This document shows, in pieces, positions 3,271-50,904 of a DNA stretch of 50,908 nucleotides. This DNA comes from Marinifilum sp. (GTDB taxonomy: Bacteria > UBA9089 > CG2-30-40-21), in assembly GCA_020717845.1 (NCBI GenBank), contig DYDG01000003.1, forward strand, positions 1-50,908, given 5' to 3'. Every line of letters begins with the position of its first letter. The stretch's first letter is position 1. The position numbers and the translations under genes are program-made. Under the pieces are notes generated by a model. The model saw only the letters and a list, made by a program, of their open reading frames with translations, had not been told where the DNA came from and searched no databases.

Positions 3271-3648
3271 TGCTAACTCCTGTTTGTGTACTTCATCTTC
3301 TTGCCTCACACCTTTTATAGTAACACGAAGTATTACCAAAGTCAAGAAAAATCTTGCTAAGAAATAGAACACGGATTGGACGGATGCAACGGATTTCCAC
3401 AGATCAGAGTTATAAAAGATCCGTGAAAATCCGTCAAATCCGTGTCATCCGTGTTCTATAACTCCTTGTAACATCAAAACAAAGCTAAGTTTTGACACAT
3501 TTCTGAAATCTTTCAAGTATTACTATACAGAAGAATAATTTGCTCGGATCTATCATCCTGTTCGGGCAAAAAAAGGAGGTGAAAGAGGTAAATAATGGGT
3601 GTTAATATAGATATTCAGTGAATGATTATATTAAGGAGGTATGGAAAA
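3271..3648. other. Intergenic region between MNT gene and giant secreted protein gene
   Basis: Besides the palindrome at 3365-3462, this stretch has a TTGACA box at 3492-3497 but no convincing -10 hexamer at normal spacing. At 3575-3621 a strong ribosome-binding stretch (AAAAGGAGGTGA) precedes a tiny frame ATG GGT GTT AAT ATA GAT ATT CAG TGA; this could be a leader peptide but is too short to support. No other gene was found. Confidence 0.4.
3365..3462. repeat. Long imperfect palindrome of the ATCCGTG repeat family, copy 1
   Basis: The left arm reads ATAGAACACGGATTGGACGG and the right arm ends CCGTGTCATCCGTGTTCTAT, so the two ends can pair over much of their length. The right half recurs at 32711-32750 with two mismatches in about 42 bases, and the core recurs as a perfect hairpin at 11284-11323. 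It lies between the MNT gene and the giant secreted-protein gene. Repeats built from ATCCGTGAAAATCCGT occur in many environmental genomes. Confidence 0.8.
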
Positions 3649-11254: not shown

Positions 11255-11283
11255 TTTGACTATACACAAAAGACATGCGATCT

Positions 11284-11323
11284 GACGGATTTTCACGGAT
11301 ATTTTTATCCGTGAAAATCCGTC
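11284..11323. repeat. Perfect 18-bp hairpin of the ATCCGTG repeat family, copy 2
   Basis: GACGGATTTTCACGGATA (11284-11301) and its exact reverse complement (11306-11323) surround a TTTT loop. It lies between the convergent porV-like and rpoN genes and could stop transcription from either side, though no long T-tract follows. It shares its core with repeats at 3365-3462 and 32711-32761. Confidence 0.85.
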
Positions 11324-11402
11324 TCATCCGTTCAATCCCAGAACTCCTGACATCACCCTGCTAACCTCCCGAGAAATAAGAGATTGTTGTAATCATAGAG
11401 AC

Positions 11403-15982: not shown

Positions 15983-17343
15983 TGATGCACAAATTATTAT
16001 TAAGCATTCTGCTATTTTCAACATCTACTGCTTATGCTCAGTCAGACAGAAGCATTGACGTTACGATTTATGCACAAGATCTGACTATGGTTAAAGAGGT
16101 CCGGCAGCTTAAGGCAAAACAGTCGGCTGCTGTTTCATTGATAACATTTTCTGACCTTCCATCACAGCTTGACCCAAGCAGTATCTCTATATCTCCAATC
16201 TCTTGCCTGCAGCAAAGCTATGAATATGACCTTTCAGACTTCAATAAGTTGTTGCAAGGCTATGTCAATGGAACAATATCTGTAAGCCTTCAAAGTGGAA
16301 AGGTATTTGATGGCTGTCTCTTAGGGTTTGATCCGCAGTGGATATTTTTAAGAGATAAAGACAGGGTAAAGTTATTAGCAATCAGTGAGATTTGCGATAT
16401 TAACTGTCAGGAACAAAGGGATAGTCTGCTCACCACGCCCAGCCTTGTGTGTACACTTGCAGGGGATAAACCATTACCTCAACAAATAACACTTCGTTAT
16501 CTTACATCTGGCATAAGCTGGAAATGTGATTACACGGCTGTCCTTAGTGATACTGATCTGTCTATGGAGCTTTCCGCTAAGGCAACCATAAATAACCAGA
16601 GTGGTGGAAAATTTCCGCAGGCAAGGATAAAATTAGTGGCTGGAAATCCCTATAGGATACAGGATATGCCTTCCCAAAGATATGAAATGCGGAAGATGGT
16701 TGCTATGGCTACAGCCCCTCTTGCTGAGGCAGAGGGAGAGCAGTATGATAGTCGGGAAGAGATAGGGGAGTATTATCTGTATACCATAAAAAATCCTGCT
16801 ACACTTAATAATAATCAAACAACTCAAGTAGATTTTTTGTCACAGATGCATGTGCCTGTTAAGAAAAAGTTTAGCTATGATTATACCAAATCAGCAAAAA
16901 ATGCCAGACTCATCCTGTCCTTTAAGAATGAAAAGCATGGTGGACTGGGCATCCCCTTGCCAAAGGGTAAGATACGCTGCTATAAACAGGATGAAGAGGA
17001 TTTTTTGCAGTTTATCGGAGAGAATATCATTGAACATACACCGGTTAATGACGAAATAACCCTTTGTCTTGGCGATGTTTTTGATATTACAGCCGGGAGA
17101 GAAACAAAAGACAGAAGGGTATTGTCTAAGGAAAAGGTTGAAGAGGATTATGAGGTCAAGATAAAGAATCGTAAAAAGGAAAAGGTATTAGTAGAGGTTA
17201 CAGAACATGCCTGGGGCAGTTGGGAGGTAATTAAAAGTACCCATAAGTATGTTAAAAAAACCGCAGATACACTGGTATTTGAAATGGAAATAGCACCTGA
17301 TACAGAAGCGTCTCTTCTGTATACTGTAACTTATAGGCGATGA
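15982..17343 (+). CDS. DUF4139 domain-containing exported protein
   Basis: The 453-residue protein has a signal peptide (MMHKLLLSILLFSTSTAYAQ). Its N-terminal half starts like mucoidy-inhibitor A/DUF4139 proteins (VTIYAQDLTMVKEVRQL), and its middle has the family hallmark LRYLTSGISWKCDYTAVLS and ARIKLVAGNPYRI. Function is unknown; the beta-rich protein is probably periplasmic or outer-membrane-associated. Around residue 245, ATAPLAEAEGEQ comes from DNA (16710-16736) resembling half of the repeat found in pabB and the secretin. It is translationally coupled to the upstream MerR gene. Confidence 0.82.
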   Translation: MMHKLLLSILLFSTSTAYAQSDRSIDVTIYAQDLTMVKEVRQLKAKQSAAVSLITFSDLPSQLDPSSISISPISCLQQSYEYDLSDFNKLLQGYVNGTISVSLQSGKVFDGCLLGFDPQWIFLRDKDRVKLLAISEICDINCQEQRDSLLTTPSLVCTLAGDKPLPQQITLRYLTSGISWKCDYTAVLSDTDLSMELSAKATINNQSGGKFPQARIKLVAGNPYRIQDMPSQRYEMRKMVAMATAPLAEAEGEQYDSREEIGEYYLYTIKNPATLNNNQTTQVDFLSQMHVPVKKKFSYDYTKSAKNARLILSFKNEKHGGLGIPLPKGKIRCYKQDEEDFLQFIGENIIEHTPVNDEITLCLGDVFDITAGRETKDRRVLSKEKVEEDYEVKIKNRKKEKVLVEVTEHAWGSWEVIKSTHKYVKKTADTLVFEMEIAPDTEASLLYTVTYRR

Positions 17344-17503: not shown

Positions 17504-18400
17504 ATGCAAGAAAAGGTACGGATTGGGTTTATCGGCGGCAGTGGGCTTTATCAAATGGATGGCATAGAAGATGTGACAACAATGGCTATTGATACCCCTT
17601 TTGGTAAGCCATCTGATGAATTAATCATTGGCAAGATTAATGGTGAAAAAGGCGAAAAAGTAGCCTTTCTGGCAAGGCATAAAAGAGGGCATTCTATCAT
17701 GCCCACAGAGATAAACTTCAGGGCAAATATCTATGCCTTAAAATCAATTGGGGTAGAATGGATTATCAGTATTAGTGCTGTTGGAAGCTTGAGGGAGGAG
17801 TTGCAGCCATTGAATATGGTTGTCCCTGACCAGGTGTTTGATTATACCAAGCAGCGAACCTCTACCTTTTTTGGGAATGGAATGGTAGCTCATATTGGCA
17901 TGGCTGATCCATTTTGCCCTATTTTAAGCCAGATATTGTTTGATACAGCCAGTGATGCAGGGTGTTGTGTGCATAAGGGCGGAACCTATGTTTGCATTGA
18001 GGGACCACAGTTTTCTACTCGAGCTGAATCAAATGTATATCGTCAGCTTGGGTTTGATATCATTGGTATGACTGCTATGCCAGAGGCAAAACTTGCCAGA
18101 GAGGCACAGATTTGCTATGCCACACTCGCTATGGTTACAGATTACGATGTTTGGCATGAATCAGCTCATGATGTTACGGTAGAGATGGTGATAGAGAATC
18201 TGAATAAAAATGTTGCCAATGCTAAAAGGATAATCCAGGATATAGTCAATAAAATTCCACAAGAAAGAGGAGGGAGCCCCTCTGGCGGAGGGTGCCCCTC
18301 TGGCATATGTGGTTGTGCCTCTGCTCTAAAGGATGCCATCATTACTAATCCTGAGATAATTCCAGATGAAACAAGGAAAAAACTGTCGTTGCTGTTATAA
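17504..18400 (+). CDS. mtnP: S-methyl-5'-thioadenosine phosphorylase
   Basis: The 298-residue purine nucleoside phosphorylase family member has GGSGLY, the phosphate/base-site loop RHKRGHSIMPTEINFRAN, EGPQFSTRAESNVYRQLG and GMTAMPEAKLAREA, then VTDYDVW, where Asp is typical of methylthioadenosine (6-aminopurine) specificity. It splits 5'-methylthioadenosine to adenine and 5-methylthioribose 1-phosphate in methionine salvage. Near the C-terminus GGSPSGGGCPSG is encoded by a dispersed palindromic repeat (18271-18304) that is read in another frame in the secretin. AGGAGG precedes the ATG. Confidence 0.93.
   Translation: MQEKVRIGFIGGSGLYQMDGIEDVTTMAIDTPFGKPSDELIIGKINGEKGEKVAFLARHKRGHSIMPTEINFRANIYALKSIGVEWIISISAVGSLREELQPLNMVVPDQVFDYTKQRTSTFFGNGMVAHIGMADPFCPILSQILFDTASDAGCCVHKGGTYVCIEGPQFSTRAESNVYRQLGFDIIGMTAMPEAKLAREAQICYATLAMVTDYDVWHESAHDVTVEMVIENLNKNVANAKRIIQDIVNKIPQERGGSPSGGGCPSGICGCASALKDAIITNPEIIPDETRKKLSLLL
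18271..18304. repeat. In-frame palindromic repeat inside mtnP
   Basis: The string starting GGGAGCCCCTCTGGCGGAGG shares 26 identical bases (with the preceding GA) with 31508-31533 in the secretin gene and is related to 20776-20808 in pabB. Here it is read as GSPSGGGCPSG. Confidence 0.85.
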
Positions 18401-19440: not shown

Positions 19441-19915
19441 AAAGATTAAAACTTTAAGTGAAATCAAGCAAATAGTTGGTCTGCTCAAAAGCCAGAATAA
19501 AAAGATTGTTTTTACTAATGGATGCTTTGATATTCTGCACGCAGGTCATGTCAAATACCTTCAAGAAGCAAAAAGCCTTGGCAATGTCTTGATTCTCGGA
19601 CTGAATACAGACTGGTCAGTATGTGCTAATAAGGGACCCTTGCGTCCATTGGTTGGCGAAGATGACCGGGCAGAGGTTCTGGCAGCACTCTCCTGCGTTG
19701 ATTATATCATTATGTTTGATGAATTTACTCCAGAAAATCTGATTGAGGCGATAATTCCAAACATCTTAGTTAAGGGTGGGGATTACCAGATAGATGATAT
19801 CAAGGGCAGGGAATGCGTCGAGGCAAATAATGGAAGGGTTGTTTCCATACCATTTATCCCGGATAAGTCGACAACGAATCTTATCAAGTTGATTATCGAA
19901 AGGTATGGACGTTAA
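19433..19915 (+). CDS. rfaE2: D-glycero-beta-D-manno-heptose 1-phosphate adenylyltransferase
   Basis: This 160-residue nucleotidyltransferase has FTNGCFDILHAGHVKYLQEA, with the HxGH motif, then LGLNTDWSV, and near the end VKGGDYQIDDIKGRE and IPFIPDKSTTNLI. It transfers AMP to heptose 1-phosphate, completing ADP-heptose. The ATG at 19433 lies within the end of rfaE1; a GTG nine bases earlier is possible. The 3' end overlaps the convergent pabB gene by 23 bp. Confidence 0.93.
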   Translation: MSEKIKTLSEIKQIVGLLKSQNKKIVFTNGCFDILHAGHVKYLQEAKSLGNVLILGLNTDWSVCANKGPLRPLVGEDDRAEVLAALSCVDYIIMFDEFTPENLIEAIIPNILVKGGDYQIDDIKGRECVEANNGRVVSIPFIPDKSTTNLIKLIIERYGR

Positions 19916-21542
19916 AGGCTGGAATTGTGGGATTTAGATGCGTTTGCTCTGACCTCACTCTTGTCAACGCCTCAATCAATGCCTTACCCTTATGAAGAGT
20001 TTCCATATATTCATCCTCTGGTGAGGAATCTGCGACAATGCCGCCGCCAACGTGGAAATAAACCTGATTGTTTTTTATCAAGAAGGTGCGAATGGCAATG
20101 TTTAGGTCCATACTGCCGGTAAAGCTCAGGTAACCAATGGAGCCTGTATAGATATGCCTTTTATTTGGTTCTAACTCATCGATTATCTCCATTGCCCTTA
20201 TCTTTGGTGCACCAGTTATTGAGCCGCCAGGGAAACATGCCTCAAGCAGGTCAAATCGGTCATTCTCGGCTGAAAGCCTGCCACAGATAGTAGCCACAGT
20301 ATGGAATACGGTTGGATATGTTTCTATCCTTCGCATATCCTTGACCACAACCGAACCATGCTGGCATACACGGCCAAGGTCATTTCTCAGAAGGTCAACA
20401 ATCATTATCAATTCAGCTTTATCCTTTTCGCTTAAAAGAAGCTCTTCCTTGAATTTTTTATCCTCAGCCCTATTTTTACCTCGTGGTCGTGTGCCCTTGA
20501 TTGGTCTTGTTTCCACATAGCTACCTTCAACCATAACAAACCGTTCTGGTGATGAACCTGCTATTACCACCTCATTAAAGTCCAGATAGCTGCCAAAGGG
20601 AGCCGGGTTTATTTCCCTTAGCCGCTGATACAGCTCAAACGGCGGGACAGAGATGCTTGTCATTATTCGTTGAGCCAGATTCACCTGATAGATGTCTCCA
20701 GAAGCAATATATTCCTTTGCTCTTGTTACTGCCTGGATATACTCTTCTCTGGTAAAGTTTGAGGTAATAGCTGTTGCCAGGGGGGCTGCCTCTGCCAGAG
20801 GGGCTGCCTTATTTGGAAGTAGCACTTCTGGCAATTGCAGGAGTGAATGTGCAGAGACAGGTTTGCCAGAGATGCCGTTTCGACTCCGCTCGTTTCGACT
20901 CCGCTCAACGACCGGGTTGTTTGCAATGCTACCTTTACCAGAAAGCACCTCTGCCAGTTGTAATCGATCTTTCATCCATTTTATCCGACAAAGGGCTCGT
21001 TTGTGACGCAAACTGCCCTGTTCTGGAAAGCCGCTTGAGGAGATATAAGCCTGCCTCTGTTTATGGTCAAAGATGAGAATAACGTCATACAGACAGACCA
21101 TACAGTCAGGGATATTGAGGTCATCCACAGCCTTTGCAGGTAATTCCTCAATAAGATTACGCATTTCATAGCTAAAATACCCAACCCCGCCGCCAAGGAA
21201 TGAGGGTAATTGAGACAGCATGTCTGGCATAGATAATTTGTATTGGTCAATAATCTGGCGAAGGATGGTAAAAGGGTTGCCATGAAGCTGTATAGATGAA
21301 GAGCCATTCATTCCTACGGTCAATACCTCTATATTTTCTCCCTTGCTCTTGAATATTAGAAACGGGTCAAAGCCAATAAATGAATATCGACCAGTCATAT
21401 ACCTATTCATGCCACTGTCAAGGAAGAAAGGGTATTTCTGTCCACTCTGATCATTAAGGGCAGAGAACACATGGTGTGGGTCAATAAAGGGAATTCGTTC
21501 GATTACAGGAGATACTGCCTCCATGAAGAAAGAATTTAGCAA
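19893..21542 (-). CDS. pabB: Aminodeoxychorismate synthase component I (PabB-type chorismate-binding enzyme)
   Basis: The 549-residue chorismate-utilising enzyme has the N-terminal Anth_synt_I fold (RYSFIGFDPFLIF, GGGVGYFSYE) and a catalytic domain from about residue 270 with EEYIQAVTRAKEYIASGDIY, LIMIVDLLRNDLGR and GSITGAPKIRAMEIIDELE. PIKGTRPRG has the Lys typical of PabB; anthranilate synthases have PIAGT. It converts chorismate to aminodeoxychorismate for folate, needing an amidotransferase subunit not present here. The linker (about 200-265) is inflated by two repeat families giving VERSRNERSRN and KAAPLAEAAPLA. The start is TTG 21542, with AAGGTG seven bases upstream. Confidence 0.9.
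   Translation of the reverse strand: MLNSFFMEAVSPVIERIPFIDPHHVFSALNDQSGQKYPFFLDSGMNRYMTGRYSFIGFDPFLIFKSKGENIEVLTVGMNGSSSIQLHGNPFTILRQIIDQYKLSMPDMLSQLPSFLGGGVGYFSYEMRNLIEELPAKAVDDLNIPDCMVCLYDVILIFDHKQRQAYISSSGFPEQGSLRHKRALCRIKWMKDRLQLAEVLSGKGSIANNPVVERSRNERSRNGISGKPVSAHSLLQLPEVLLPNKAAPLAEAAPLATAITSNFTREEYIQAVTRAKEYIASGDIYQVNLAQRIMTSISVPPFELYQRLREINPAPFGSYLDFNEVVIAGSSPERFVMVEGSYVETRPIKGTRPRGKNRAEDKKFKEELLLSEKDKAELIMIVDLLRNDLGRVCQHGSVVVKDMRRIETYPTVFHTVATICGRLSAENDRFDLLEACFPGGSITGAPKIRAMEIIDELEPNKRHIYTGSIGYLSFTGSMDLNIAIRTFLIKNNQVYFHVGGGIVADSSPEDEYMETLHKGKALIEALTRVRSEQTHLNPTIPAFNVHTFR
20776..20808. repeat. In-frame palindromic repeat inside pabB linker
   Basis: On the coding strand it begins GGCAGCCCCTCTGGCAGAGG and is read as AAPLAEAAPLA. 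It is the pabB relative of the repeats in mtnP (18271-18304) and the secretin (31508-31543). Confidence 0.8.
20877..20915. repeat. GTTTCGACTCCGCTC tandem repeat inside pabB linker
   Basis: Two exact 15-bp units GTTTCGACTCCGCTC (20877-20891, 20892-20906) are followed by AACGACCGG. Read on the minus strand in frame they give VVERSRNERSRNG. The same DNA motif is a common dispersed repeat in other bacteria. Confidence 0.85.
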
Positions 21543-22239: not shown

Positions 22240-22274
22240 TTACTTCCGCATTCCGCATTCCTATTTCCGCATTT
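22240..22274. repeat. ATTCCGCATTCCGC-type repeat after the FadL-like gene
   Basis: CTTCCGCATTCCGCATTCCT followed by ATTTCCGCATTTT; a second copy (AATTCCGCATTCCGCATTTT) is at 23630-23649, at the other end of the FadL-like gene, so the gene is bracketed by the repeat in the same orientation. Confidence 0.65.
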
Positions 22275-22279
22275 TACTC

Positions 22280-23569: not shown

Positions 23570-23651
23570 AACAACGACCTCCTTATTCTAATGTAGTGAG
23601 CACCTCTATGTGCGTCTCCCCGCATTCTCAATTCCGCATTCCGCATTTTCC

Positions 23652-23918
23652 TTAGAACAACTCTTCTTCATTCAAGAAATTCTCTTGAGGCAATAGATGG
23701 CTGATATGATTCTTATTCAAAGCCATAAAATCCGACTTATACAACATATTATCACTTTCAGCCGGATATATCTTGACATTTGTAAGGGCAATAAAATCCT
23801 TTGCCCCTGCATTTAATTCATCAAGAATTCTTGCATCCTTATAAGTATACATTGTCCCTTCAACACGATGAATAGTGGTAAAAACTATTACCGGCACCTG
23901 CGATTTTTCTACCCACAT
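23652..23918 (-). CDS. Small conserved-looking protein of unknown function
   Basis: This 88-residue soluble protein begins MWVEKSQVPVIVFTTIHRVEG and contains LNAGAKDFIALTNVKIYP. It resembles short uncharacterised proteins in which a beta-rich start is followed by a KDFIAVTN-like segment; I cannot name a function. GAGGAGGAG precedes the ATG, and it begins only three bases after the aspS stop codon, so it is almost certainly co-transcribed with aspS. Confidence 0.65.
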   Translation of the reverse strand: MWVEKSQVPVIVFTTIHRVEGTMYTYKDARILDELNAGAKDFIALTNVKIYPAESDNMLYKSDFMALNKNHISHLLPQENFLNEEELF

Positions 23919-30672: not shown

Positions 30673-32688
30673 GTGTTTTGGAAACAATTTATTTTGATAG
30701 CATTAATCTTGACAGGAATACTGTCTCAGGCAGTATTTGCAGAACATCTTGTCAATATAGATTTTAAGGGCACAGATATTAAGGATGTCTTAAGGGCACT
30801 TGGTGCTCAGCAGGGTGTAAATATTGTTACTGATGAGTCTGTTAAGGGGCAGGTAACCATTCACCTTACTAATGTTCCGTTTGAGGCAGGACTAAATGCT
30901 ATCCTGGGTGCTCATCACCTTACCTATGAAAAAGAGGGGAATATTTATCGGATTATACCCATGAAGATTGAAAAGTCATATCTTCTGAATGTAGAAGATG
31001 GACTCCTTACTATGGACGCCAAGCAGGTTGATATAAATGAGATAGTAAGGGATATCTCTCTGCAAAGCAAAATAAATGTTGTTACTGATAAATCTGTTCA
31101 TGGAAATGTTTCTCTTTATCTGAACAAAATCCCAGCAGAAGAGGGTTTGCAAACGATTTTAACTACAGGTGGATTTAAGTATAAAAAAGAGAACAACATC
31201 TATATTGTTGGCGAAACAGGACAGGAAAGGATAAAAAATGTTGAGATTAGAGGCGGGCTTCTCTCCCTTGATATTGATGGAGCTGATATTCTGAAGGTGT
31301 TACGGGAAATATCCCTTCAAGGAGGGATAAATATTGTAGCTGATAAGTCTGTCTCTGGACTGGTCTCTTCTCATCTGGCTAATACAGCAGTAGAACTTGG
31401 CTTAAGAGCATTGCTTGAGGCAAATGGGTTTACCTGCGAAAAGATAAGCGGGATATTTTATGTGGGTGTGTCCAGGGGCAAGAAAACCTTTTCTATCATG
31501 GTTGATGAGGGAGCCCCTCTGGCGGAGGGTGCTCCTTTGCCAGATAAGCTCTTTACGGTTGATGTTGCCGATGCTGAACTGGGTGAGGTTATCCGAGCAC
31601 TTGCCCTTCAAGGCGGGGTGGATGTTGTTACCTGTGATTATGTTCGGGGACAGATAAATGCTCATATCTCTAAGACACCATTTGAAAAAGTGTTAGCCCT
31701 TATTCTGGAGGGAACAAATTATACCTTTTGCAAGATAAATAATATCTATATCATTGGCGAAGGTGTCTCTCTGCGTCCAGGTGCATTAACCTTTGTTACC
31801 ACAGAGGTGATAAAGATTAATTGGGTTGAGGCAAATGAGGTGCTGACCATTTTGCCGTCTGTTTTCCCAAGGGATAATATTCGGCTGCTGAAAGACCAGA
31901 ATGCTATTGTGGTTATTGGGACCAGACAACTTATTGATAAGGTTTCAGAGTTTGTCAAGCAAATAGATAAACCTTCTCCGCAGATTATGATTGAGGTATT
32001 GGTGGTAGAATTCAAGAAAAATATCGGCAATTCCCTTGGGATTAAAGAGATAGGCATTAAAGAGAATGAGCATATGGATGTAAGCCTGTTCCCCGGTGCA
32101 GTAGAGCCTTTAGTGCTGACCTATGATGTTGCCAATGTAATAAAAGACAGGTTTCTTACCAGATTAGAGGCATTAATCATGGAAAAAAAAGCAACTGTCC
32201 GGGCAAACCCAAGGATTGCAACCTTGAATGGACATGAGGCAAGTATTAGCGTGCTTACCAAGGATAGGTATCGTGAGTTTGCTAAGAGCATTGAGGCAGA
32301 TAAGATGCTGCCTGTAAGCGGACAGCAGACCGTTGAATCAGGGATACGCTTAAAGATAAAGCCATGGGTTAGTGCCTCTAATGAGATAAATGTGGATATT
32401 GCACCAGAGATAAGCAATACCACCGGTATGCTAAGTGCAGATAGCCTGCCTCAAACCTCTGAACGCAAGGTGCAAACTACCATTCGGGTTAAGGATGGAG
32501 AAACAATTATTATTGGCGGCTTAATCCAGACTCAAAACTCTTTTATGGAAAAACGAATTCCTTTTGTCAGCCGTATTCCCTTAATCGGTAAAATATTTAA
32601 GCTGAAAAGCGATGAACAGCAGCAATCAGAGCTTGTTGTCTATATTACCCCGCATCTTTTACCACTTGAGGCAGCACCTCTAAAGTAA
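30673..32688 (+). CDS. pilQ: Type IV pilus/type II secretion secretin with four STN repeats
   Basis: This 671-residue secretin has a signal peptide (to about residue 23). Four tandem STN/N0-like domains follow (about 25-100, 105-175, 190-260, 290-365), each with a DI..VLRALGAQQGVNIVTD-type core; most secretins have one. After an N1-like domain (VIKINWVEANEVLTILPSVF) comes the outer-membrane gate with ATVRANPRIATLNGHEA, VKDGETIIIGGLI and FVSRIPLIGKIFK. It forms the outer-membrane pore for pili or a type II system. GAPLAEGAPLP between STN 3 and 4 is encoded by a dispersed repeat. GTG start with GAGG eight bases upstream. It is convergent with pilMNOP-like genes rather than following pilP. PilQ versus GspD is not settled. 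Confidence 0.88.
   Translation: MFWKQFILIALILTGILSQAVFAEHLVNIDFKGTDIKDVLRALGAQQGVNIVTDESVKGQVTIHLTNVPFEAGLNAILGAHHLTYEKEGNIYRIIPMKIEKSYLLNVEDGLLTMDAKQVDINEIVRDISLQSKINVVTDKSVHGNVSLYLNKIPAEEGLQTILTTGGFKYKKENNIYIVGETGQERIKNVEIRGGLLSLDIDGADILKVLREISLQGGINIVADKSVSGLVSSHLANTAVELGLRALLEANGFTCEKISGIFYVGVSRGKKTFSIMVDEGAPLAEGAPLPDKLFTVDVADAELGEVIRALALQGGVDVVTCDYVRGQINAHISKTPFEKVLALILEGTNYTFCKINNIYIIGEGVSLRPGALTFVTTEVIKINWVEANEVLTILPSVFPRDNIRLLKDQNAIVVIGTRQLIDKVSEFVKQIDKPSPQIMIEVLVVEFKKNIGNSLGIKEIGIKENEHMDVSLFPGAVEPLVLTYDVANVIKDRFLTRLEALIMEKKATVRANPRIATLNGHEASISVLTKDRYREFAKSIEADKMLPVSGQQTVESGIRLKIKPWVSASNEINVDIAPEISNTTGMLSADSLPQTSERKVQTTIRVKDGETIIIGGLIQTQNSFMEKRIPFVSRIPLIGKIFKLKSDEQQQSELVVYITPHLLPLEAAPLK
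31508..31543. repeat. In-frame palindromic repeat inside the secretin gene
   Basis: Begins GAGGGAGCCCCTCTGGCGGA; 26 bases are identical to mtnP 18270-18295. Here it is read as EGAPLAEGAPLP, a different frame from mtnP. Confidence 0.85.
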
Positions 32689-32710
32689 AAACAACAATGT
32701 GCTCAGATTA

Positions 32711-32761
32711 TAGAACACGGATGACACAGATTTGACAGATTTTCACGGATTTTTATCGGTG
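32711..32761. repeat. ATCCGTG-family repeat, copy 3
   Basis: TAGAACACGGATGACACAGA followed by TTTGACAGATTTTCACGGAT matches the reverse complement of 3420-3461 with two differences. It lies between the convergent secretin and pilP-like genes. Confidence 0.8.
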
Positions 32762-40315: not shown

Positions 40316-40363
40316 AATTCTTAACTCTCCGTTAAATTGGTAAAGCGACAAGTTATTATTAGA

Positions 40364-40482
40364 CAGGCTGGAACAGCCTAAGAATCTGATATAAGAGACA
40401 CACAATGTATTGGGTCAAGCTCATTGCCATTTGCCATAATAGTATATCATTACTATTGATTTTTACATTCTGTAACAGCCTG
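40364..40482. mobile_element. MITE-like 119-bp element, copy 2 (diverged)
   Basis: Exactly the same length as copy 1 (91-209) and, in opposite orientation, alignable end to end at roughly two-thirds identity by eye. Ends are CAGGCTG and CAGCCTG, the right end has ATTCTGTAACAGCCTG, and the centre shares TTGGGTCAAGCT. The left terminal repeat is damaged and no target duplication is clear, so this is an older insertion. It lies between pilT and pilC and creates a false upstream extension of pilC. Confidence 0.8.
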
Positions 40483-40512
40483 TTGTGTTCGTTTAACGTA
40501 TTTATTATGAAA

Positions 40513-50744: not shown

Positions 50745-50834
50745 AAGTGTATAAAACTCAATGTTCAAGTTTTTTCTGGCTCATAGTAATCACCAGAATA
50801 AAGCGGTAAAATGCCCGCTGATATTCTTGTAGCT

Positions 50835-50904
50835 GCGACCTGCCAGAGGTGCTACCTCCTTGTGGTCGCTTCTTATTTCCCATGCGTGGTTGAAAGATAG
50901 CGGG
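50835..50904. repeat. GCGACC/GGTCGC hairpin repeat, copy B
   Basis: GCGACC (50835-50840) pairs with GGTCGC (50863-50868) around CTGCCAGAGGTGCTACCTCC. The copy aligns with the complement of 30347-30419. The inner CCAGAGGTGCTACC also resembles the coding repeats of pabB and mtnP. It runs close to the window end and may continue. Confidence 0.7.

Follow-up and report, generated by a model that had tools for sequence, protein, structure and literature searches.

Selfish palindromes that lie in frame within genes have passed for a curiosity, with descriptions coming chiefly from Rickettsia, Wolbachia and a small number of REP-rich bacteria.

The Rickettsia palindromic elements (RPEs) are 105-146 bp long (PMC2229807), and both they and the protein-coding palindromes of Wolbachia occur between genes as well as in frame within unrelated, often conserved genes, where they are usually tolerated in unstructured parts of the protein (PMC2229807, PMC2996958). 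RPE-4 and RPE-6 belong to the CGTC REPs; REPs of the GTAG and CGTC classes are 20-40 bp long and some are intragenic, their hosts including DNA polymerase I, UvrD, excinucleases and tRNA synthetases, often genes related to DNA repair or tRNA (PMC3733652). PARCEL, from Mycoplasma and others, is a 25-residue (75-nt) amphipathic domain associated with membrane proteins and with genes whose function is unknown (PMC2996958). The hairpin elements of sponge and fungal mitochondria are very short and scattered; their stems are better conserved than their loops, and now and then one is inserted in a coding sequence (PMC2800124).

The repeat described here came to light in a 50,908-nt stretch of DNA (the window) from a draft genome of 2.55 Mb in 181 contigs (G000, the source genome), which we compared with three congeners (G001, G002, G003), order relatives (among them G004-G006) and more distant genomes. 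We are confident, close to certain, that it is mobile or copied DNA that is translated and tolerated within proteins. It is also likely, in our view, that it is a mobile palindromic repeat, non-autonomous and built on an 18-nt quantum, which would move as a single-stranded DNA hairpin and probably be mobilised in trans by an HUH/Y1 enzyme.

The 18-nt unit and its copies

The original prediction was that one 26-bp string is shared by mtnP and a secretin gene (a name we retain from that prediction) in different reading frames. The string, GAGGGAGCCCCTCTGGCGGA, does occur exactly on the forward strand at 18270 and 31507, where no copy is expected by chance, and the two loci are 88% identical over 42 nt, including the 26 identical bases. 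The related copy claimed for pabB is likewise real (minus strand, 20791-20810, three mismatches, none expected by chance), and all three readings were given correctly: GGSPSGGGCPSG in mtnP, EGAPLAEGAPLP in the secretin and AAPLAEAAPLA in pabB. The underlying unit is 18 nt long; in one phase it is GAG-n-n-AGC-n'-n'-CTC-TGGCA, and its tandem form is S-AGC-S'-GGC, where S = AGAGnn. Its copies in the window are collected in Table 1.

Table 1. Repeat units, their host genes and a REP-type element within the window
Feature	Position	Strand	Reading or remark
Host gene mtnP (5'-methylthioadenosine phosphorylase)	17504..18400	+	PDB match 4glf, E=1.6e-91
Two tandem units in mtnP	18270..18305	+	GSPSGG-GCPSGI; frame xGA GGG AGC CCC TCT GGC
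Host gene pabB (aminodeoxychorismate synthase component I)	19893..21542	-	
Two units in the pabB inter-domain linker	20775..20810	-	AAPLAE-AAPLAT
Further pabB-linker unit, GAAGT-AGC-ACTTC-TGGCA	20816..20833	+	Opposite orientation; compensatory change at stem position 3
Possible decayed unit, pabB linker	20864..20881	-	Score 12.3, not above control
Possible decayed unit, pabB linker	20939..20956	+	Score 12.0, not above control
Host gene, secretin-type protein	30673..32688	+	Units between two repeated domains; repeat structure from sequence
Two units in the secretin gene	31507..31542	+	EGAPLA-EGAPLP; second unit decayed
REP-type element AGCGACCACAAG[unit]GGTCGCAGCTACAAG with nested unit	50826..50870	-	GTAG tetranucleotide on reverse complement
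Perfect unit GAGGTAGCACCTCTGGCA in ACAAG loop of GTAG-type REP hairpin	50841..50858	-	

The original prediction had overlooked two of these units, at 20816-20833 in pabB and at 50841-50858. The oppositely oriented unit in pabB scores 26.3, against 15.6 for the best of 10 simulated windows, and the pabB units fall within residues about 168-252, an inter-domain stretch left unaligned by PDB relatives. Beside them in the linker lies a second repeat, TTTCGACTCCGCTC (20885-20920), read ERSRNERSRN. In mtnP, a sequence resembling the unit at 17657 (score 14.2) was discarded; its residues are common to orthologues and it scores below the best control.

Variation among copies is structured. The variable stem positions are fully complementary in 103 of 121 distinct units, compared with a mean of 38.9 and a maximum of 52 when partners were shuffled (2000 trials). 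Perfect pairing takes six forms (GT..AC, GG..CC, GA..TC, AG..CT, AT..AT and TG..CA), and stem position 3 also varies with compensation (GGG..CCC, GAA..TTC), showing that the stem covaries among copies. The units form arrays of one to five, the number differing between sister species, and are present in both orientations, in genes and in non-coding DNA. The target-site consensus is weak, with a purine preceding the unit and no strong motif.

The original prediction had staked itself on enrichment of the repeat across the genome, and this is borne out: pattern searches, on which all our copy counts are based, returned 361 matches to GAGGNAGCNCCTCTGGC with up to three mismatches in the source genome against 6 for a reversed control, and 749, 293 and 125 matches in the three congeners against 11, 8 and 10. 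Exact copies of GAGGNAGCNCCTCTGGC number 0-7 in order relatives and 3 in one phylum relative (G010), and there is no such copy in 53 of the 61 genomes. Matches to the tandem pattern in public records come chiefly from the genus and its order relatives, and the distribution of the unit is thus restricted by lineage. Stray matches beyond the phylum (Lachnospiraceae, Bacteroidales, Nitrospirae) resemble chance or native peptides and were left uncounted.

Insertion sites, reading frames and host proteins

As read from the genome sequences, comparison of orthologues shows that the insertions are clean and lineage-specific, each exactly 18, 36 or 54 nt long. The mtnP gene has matches in 14 of 19 genomes searched. 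Its site holds no unit in G003 or in the order and phylum relatives that have a close MtnP, 18 nt in G001 and in G002, where the single units carry other stems, and 36 nt in the source genome. An insert of 36 nt in mnmE is confined to the source genome, the site being empty in all three congeners. The secretin gene has two units in G000-G002 and none in G004-G006. Some older sites, namely the hypF-like gene L193, L196 and the secretin gene when set against the order relatives, are too diverged for a clean length and were not counted. In polA the source genome reads TACATCCCC|TGCCAGAGGGGCTCCCTC|TTTTC against the empty TACATCCCCTTTTC of G001, and in pabB there is a separate 36-nt block in G002 and, in G001, three units in place of two (+18 nt). 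Other inserts measure 18 nt (mfd; L197; L187, common to the source genome and G001), 36 nt (purC) and 54 nt (an ABC ATPase gene, L172). The 18-nt step is intrinsic to the element, because coding inserts need only be multiples of 3, not of 18; since 18 is itself a multiple of 3, the insert keeps the frame. No target-site duplication was found at the junctions compared (polA, mnmE, L197 and REP loops). One claim did not survive: where a half copy was suspected in the DUF4139 gene (16710-16736), all four congeners have the segment too, with hardly any difference in length, and they include G003, several of whose other sites are empty. An insertion of the unit is therefore ruled out there.

These sites bear on several other accounts of the repeat. 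Tandem hexapeptides such as EGAPLAEGAPLA resemble protein repeats, as in-place expansion of native codons or common ancestry of a repeat peptide would produce. Unrelated proteins, however, carry the same DNA in five different frames, copies are also found within non-coding REP loops, and the empty sites in congeners are precise; shared protein ancestry, which the original prediction had also rejected, and codon slippage are ruled out on these grounds, and we assign this account a negligible probability. Equally negligible is an assembly artefact or contamination: the data are metagenome-assembled genomes (MAGs) whose contigs often end near REP-embedded copies, but orthologous inserts recur in independent MAGs with divergent flanks (the secretin gene in G000-G002; L187 and trpG in G000 and G001). 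A selected functional DNA motif, serving uptake, segregation, recombination or regulation and tolerated in reading frames in the manner of the Neisseria DNA uptake sequences, would suit a high copy number, dispersed genus-wide in both orientations through coding and intergenic DNA. Yet the copies did not come about through point mutations in native codons but were added as clean 18n blocks, the sites are mostly species-specific, and stems that vary between copies keep no fixed binding sequence; we consider such a motif very improbable. The original view, that copied or mobile DNA is tolerated inside proteins, draws support from both the enrichment and the empty orthologous sites.

Host genes in the source genome are mtnP, pabB, the secretin gene, mnmE, polA, mfd, purC, purL and rsmE, to which the relatives add mutS, gltX and mnmG; Pfam matches identify as hosts, among others, DNA polymerase I, MutS, a UvrD-type helicase, MnmE, MnmG, GltX, PurL, PurC, RsmE and RACo. 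Within open reading frames (called by open length) that span 200 codons or more, the readings of the unit are ExAxLA (37 copies), ARGAxS (31), GSxSG (20), PExLPL (16) and CQRxxL (5). The sixth frame, RxxLWQ, is stop-prone, with TAG in its T variants, and accounts for 0 of 109 copies. Thirty-seven same-strand copies are variants without a stop in that frame and none of them uses it; its absence even among stop-free variants therefore points to selection on the peptide. Rarity of the Cys-containing frame (CQRxxL) is as expected if the peptide were made and judged. Together, frame use and the missing stop-prone frame indicate that the inserts would be translated. Their presence in essential enzymes, including polA, mnmE and mutS, might instead favour removal or bypass of the inserts, like the byp elements of yeast mitochondria, but the empty stop-prone frame, with 0 against 37 stop-free same-strand copies, and the scarcity of the Cys frame both speak against it, and we think bypass highly improbable. 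Read-through of the stop-prone frame was also rejected, no long interrupted open reading frame having been found.

The inserts are shown to persist at loops and linkers, as tolerated extra loops of 6, 12 or 18 amino acids. In two predicted models, both of low confidence (mean pLDDT 58 and 51), the insert forms coil between regular elements (mtnP 256-268, mnmE 337-346). A predicted example of a peptide spanning an insert is ...QERGGSPSGGGCPSG.... Unrelated short repeats of sister species occupy the same host positions in purL, polA, rsmE, lptE and L195, as expected if these positions are tolerant places and not specific targets.

Several neighbouring observations concern the same hosts or similar genes. 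Repeats of the AATGCGG/ATTCCGC type, which stand in tandem between genes in the window (22246-22278, 23620-23652), are in frame in rsmE (L012) and in purL of G001 (L213), where sister species have the hairpin unit or nothing. Tandem TTCAGCC repeats, read FSLQPSAFSL, lie in the coding sequence of a unit-bearing purL and a RACo-type gene (L015, L020), and REP-like hairpins are in frame in polA of G002 and G003. A TrpG-like glutamine amidotransferase (L067 in G000, L222 in G001) has near its N-terminus an insert of about 30 residues made of several units, some decayed, common to the two species. One G003 contig (C78) carries mnmE or its GTPase part three times (L133/L139/L144), as an assembly duplication or a real one.

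Strand asymmetry and a proposed route of movement

Outside genes, the hairpin AGCGACCACAAGGGTCGCAGCTACAA occurs in an empty form and in forms whose ACAAG loop has gained exactly 18 or 36 nt, a related hairpin, GCGGGGACAAGCCCCGCAGCTACAA, carries the unit in the other orientation, and one unit is interrupted in its turn by a further 18-mer (GAGGTAGCAC[TGGCAGCAGACCTTCTGC]CTCTGGCA). Imperfect stems add a further clue. Single broken pairs are A-C in 40 copies, G-T in 5 and others in 14 (18, 3 and 13 distinct types); the excess of A-C over G-T has p=8e-8 for copies, which are not phylogenetically independent, and p=0.0015 for distinct types (18 against 3). An A-C pair here is G-T on the complement, and it is therefore the complement strand that keeps a pairable hairpin. 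The ratio is 16:2 outside long open reading frames, 12:3 in copies read on the same strand and 12:0 in those read on the opposite strand; because the bias is independent of host gene orientation, it would have its origin not in host mRNA but in a stage at which the element is single-stranded. The asymmetry thus suggests that the element passes through a mobile intermediate that is single-stranded and has one polarity.

The sites compared show that one to several tandem 18-nt units have entered unrelated genes and REP-hairpin loops as DNA in either orientation. We envisage the element moving as a single-stranded hairpin of one strand, 5'-TGCCAGAGnnGCTn'n'CTC-3', and probably being mobilised in trans by an HUH/Y1 enzyme (TnpA_REP- or IS200-like). 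Arrays would grow through repeated insertion or slippage, and selection would purge copies except in tolerant places. A Y1-type route in particular can be put forward only tentatively, at somewhat below even chances. We infer it from the lack of target duplication, the one-strand structural bias, and the co-occurrence in the genus of RAYT-like Y1 genes and GTAG-REPs. Against it, none of the 12 Y1_Tnp loci in the four genus genomes, all incomplete MAGs in which an unassembled locus is possible, is flanked by the unit. Unit matches near these loci are limited to a single copy that brackets nothing (L130) and an array embedded in a REP (L126). Where Y1 loci are bracketed at all, as several are, it is by other REP families of the GTAG type, and a RAYT as the unit's own transposase was rejected.

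The main rival dispenses with an enzyme. Template switching or slippage of the polymerase, provoked by the hairpin, would duplicate units in place, restore stem symmetry by quasi-palindrome correction and occasionally drop a copy elsewhere. Such copying would accommodate the arrays and their differing unit numbers, the perfect stems and the failure to find a mobilising gene among the Y1 loci of the genus. Local template switching, however, does not predict that new sites in unrelated genes share a sharp-ended 18-nt quantum, old copies decay without becoming symmetrical again (as in the second secretin unit), and correction alone would not give the one-strand wobble bias. We judge enzyme-free copying unlikely, and favour a mobilised single-stranded hairpin.

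Other dispersed repeats share these genomes. The Y1 (RAYT-like) genes L123, L121, L127, L129 and L130 (G000-G002) have GTAG-type REP hairpins nearby, each with its own family, such as GTAGGGGCAGACCTATGTGTCTGCCC (L129), GTAGGGGCGGGTTCTAAACCCGCCC (L127) and GTAGCTGC... (L123). In the window, a palindromic family of about 40 bp (ATCCGTGAAAATCCGT...) occupies at least three intergenic places (3364-3461, 11279-11338, 32708-32754), and inverted repeats around TTCGACAGGCTGTTACGGAAT at 86-219 and 40354-40483 form another.

Implications and relation to described elements

A single lineage with hundreds of 18-nt copies, occupied and empty sites in close genomes, and five reading frames makes it testable how such an element moves, how proteins tolerate or use the loops, and what share of short protein insertions comes from mobile DNA. 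Unexplained hexapeptide repeats in metagenomic proteins can, moreover, be DNA parasites rather than protein features. One attractive but speculative possibility, to which we give roughly one chance in three, is that this is the smallest known frame-keeping mobile element: a bare 18-nt single-stranded DNA hairpin, recognised by its shape and not by its sequence, as the variable covarying stem would allow, and mobilised in trans, that would add six-residue modules to essential enzymes genus-wide and so drive insertion-based protein evolution.

Neither the unit nor its peptides was found in the open-access literature. PARCEL is likewise tandem coding DNA with dyad symmetry, but the unit differs in its 18-nt period, its six residues, its five frames and its core-enzyme hosts. 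The mitochondrial elements are also very short, scattered hairpins with occasional coding insertions, but they are organellar, mainly intergenic and lack an 18-nt frame-keeping unit. A MITE of a DDE transposon, which would have terminal inverted repeats and a duplicated target site, is at odds with the clean junctions. HUH/Y1 elements of the IS200/IS605 kind would leave no duplication and have a hairpin recognised on one strand; the unit has clean junctions and a one-strand wobble bias but a weak target consensus, and a kinship with them may be suggested only tentatively.

The closest relatives are RPEs and REPs. The original prediction likened the repeat to RPEs, and in behaviour the likeness holds, as both are palindromic repeats that occur in frame in unrelated genes and also between genes. 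Membership does not: an RPE is about 105-146 bp with one long stem-loop, whereas the unit is an 18-nt quantum that stands in tandem, has stems which vary and covary, and comes from uncultured environmental bacteria of an unrelated lineage, so that size, sequence and architecture all differ. With the REP/RAYT (TnpA_REP) system the unit shares short dispersed hairpins, some of them in genes, and it even nests in a GTAG-type REP. It is nevertheless 18 nt against 20-40 bp and has no fixed terminal tetranucleotide, nnAG being GT, GG, GA, AT, AG or TG followed by AG and lying inside the stem-loop; the strict 18-nt quantum and the coding tandem arrays are its own. We do not file it as an RPE or a REP because it departs from the RPE size, the REP tetranucleotide and the RAYT association. 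RPEs and intragenic REPs are the same kind of phenomenon and the unit is a member of neither; what is new is an unusually short protein-coding palindromic repeat.
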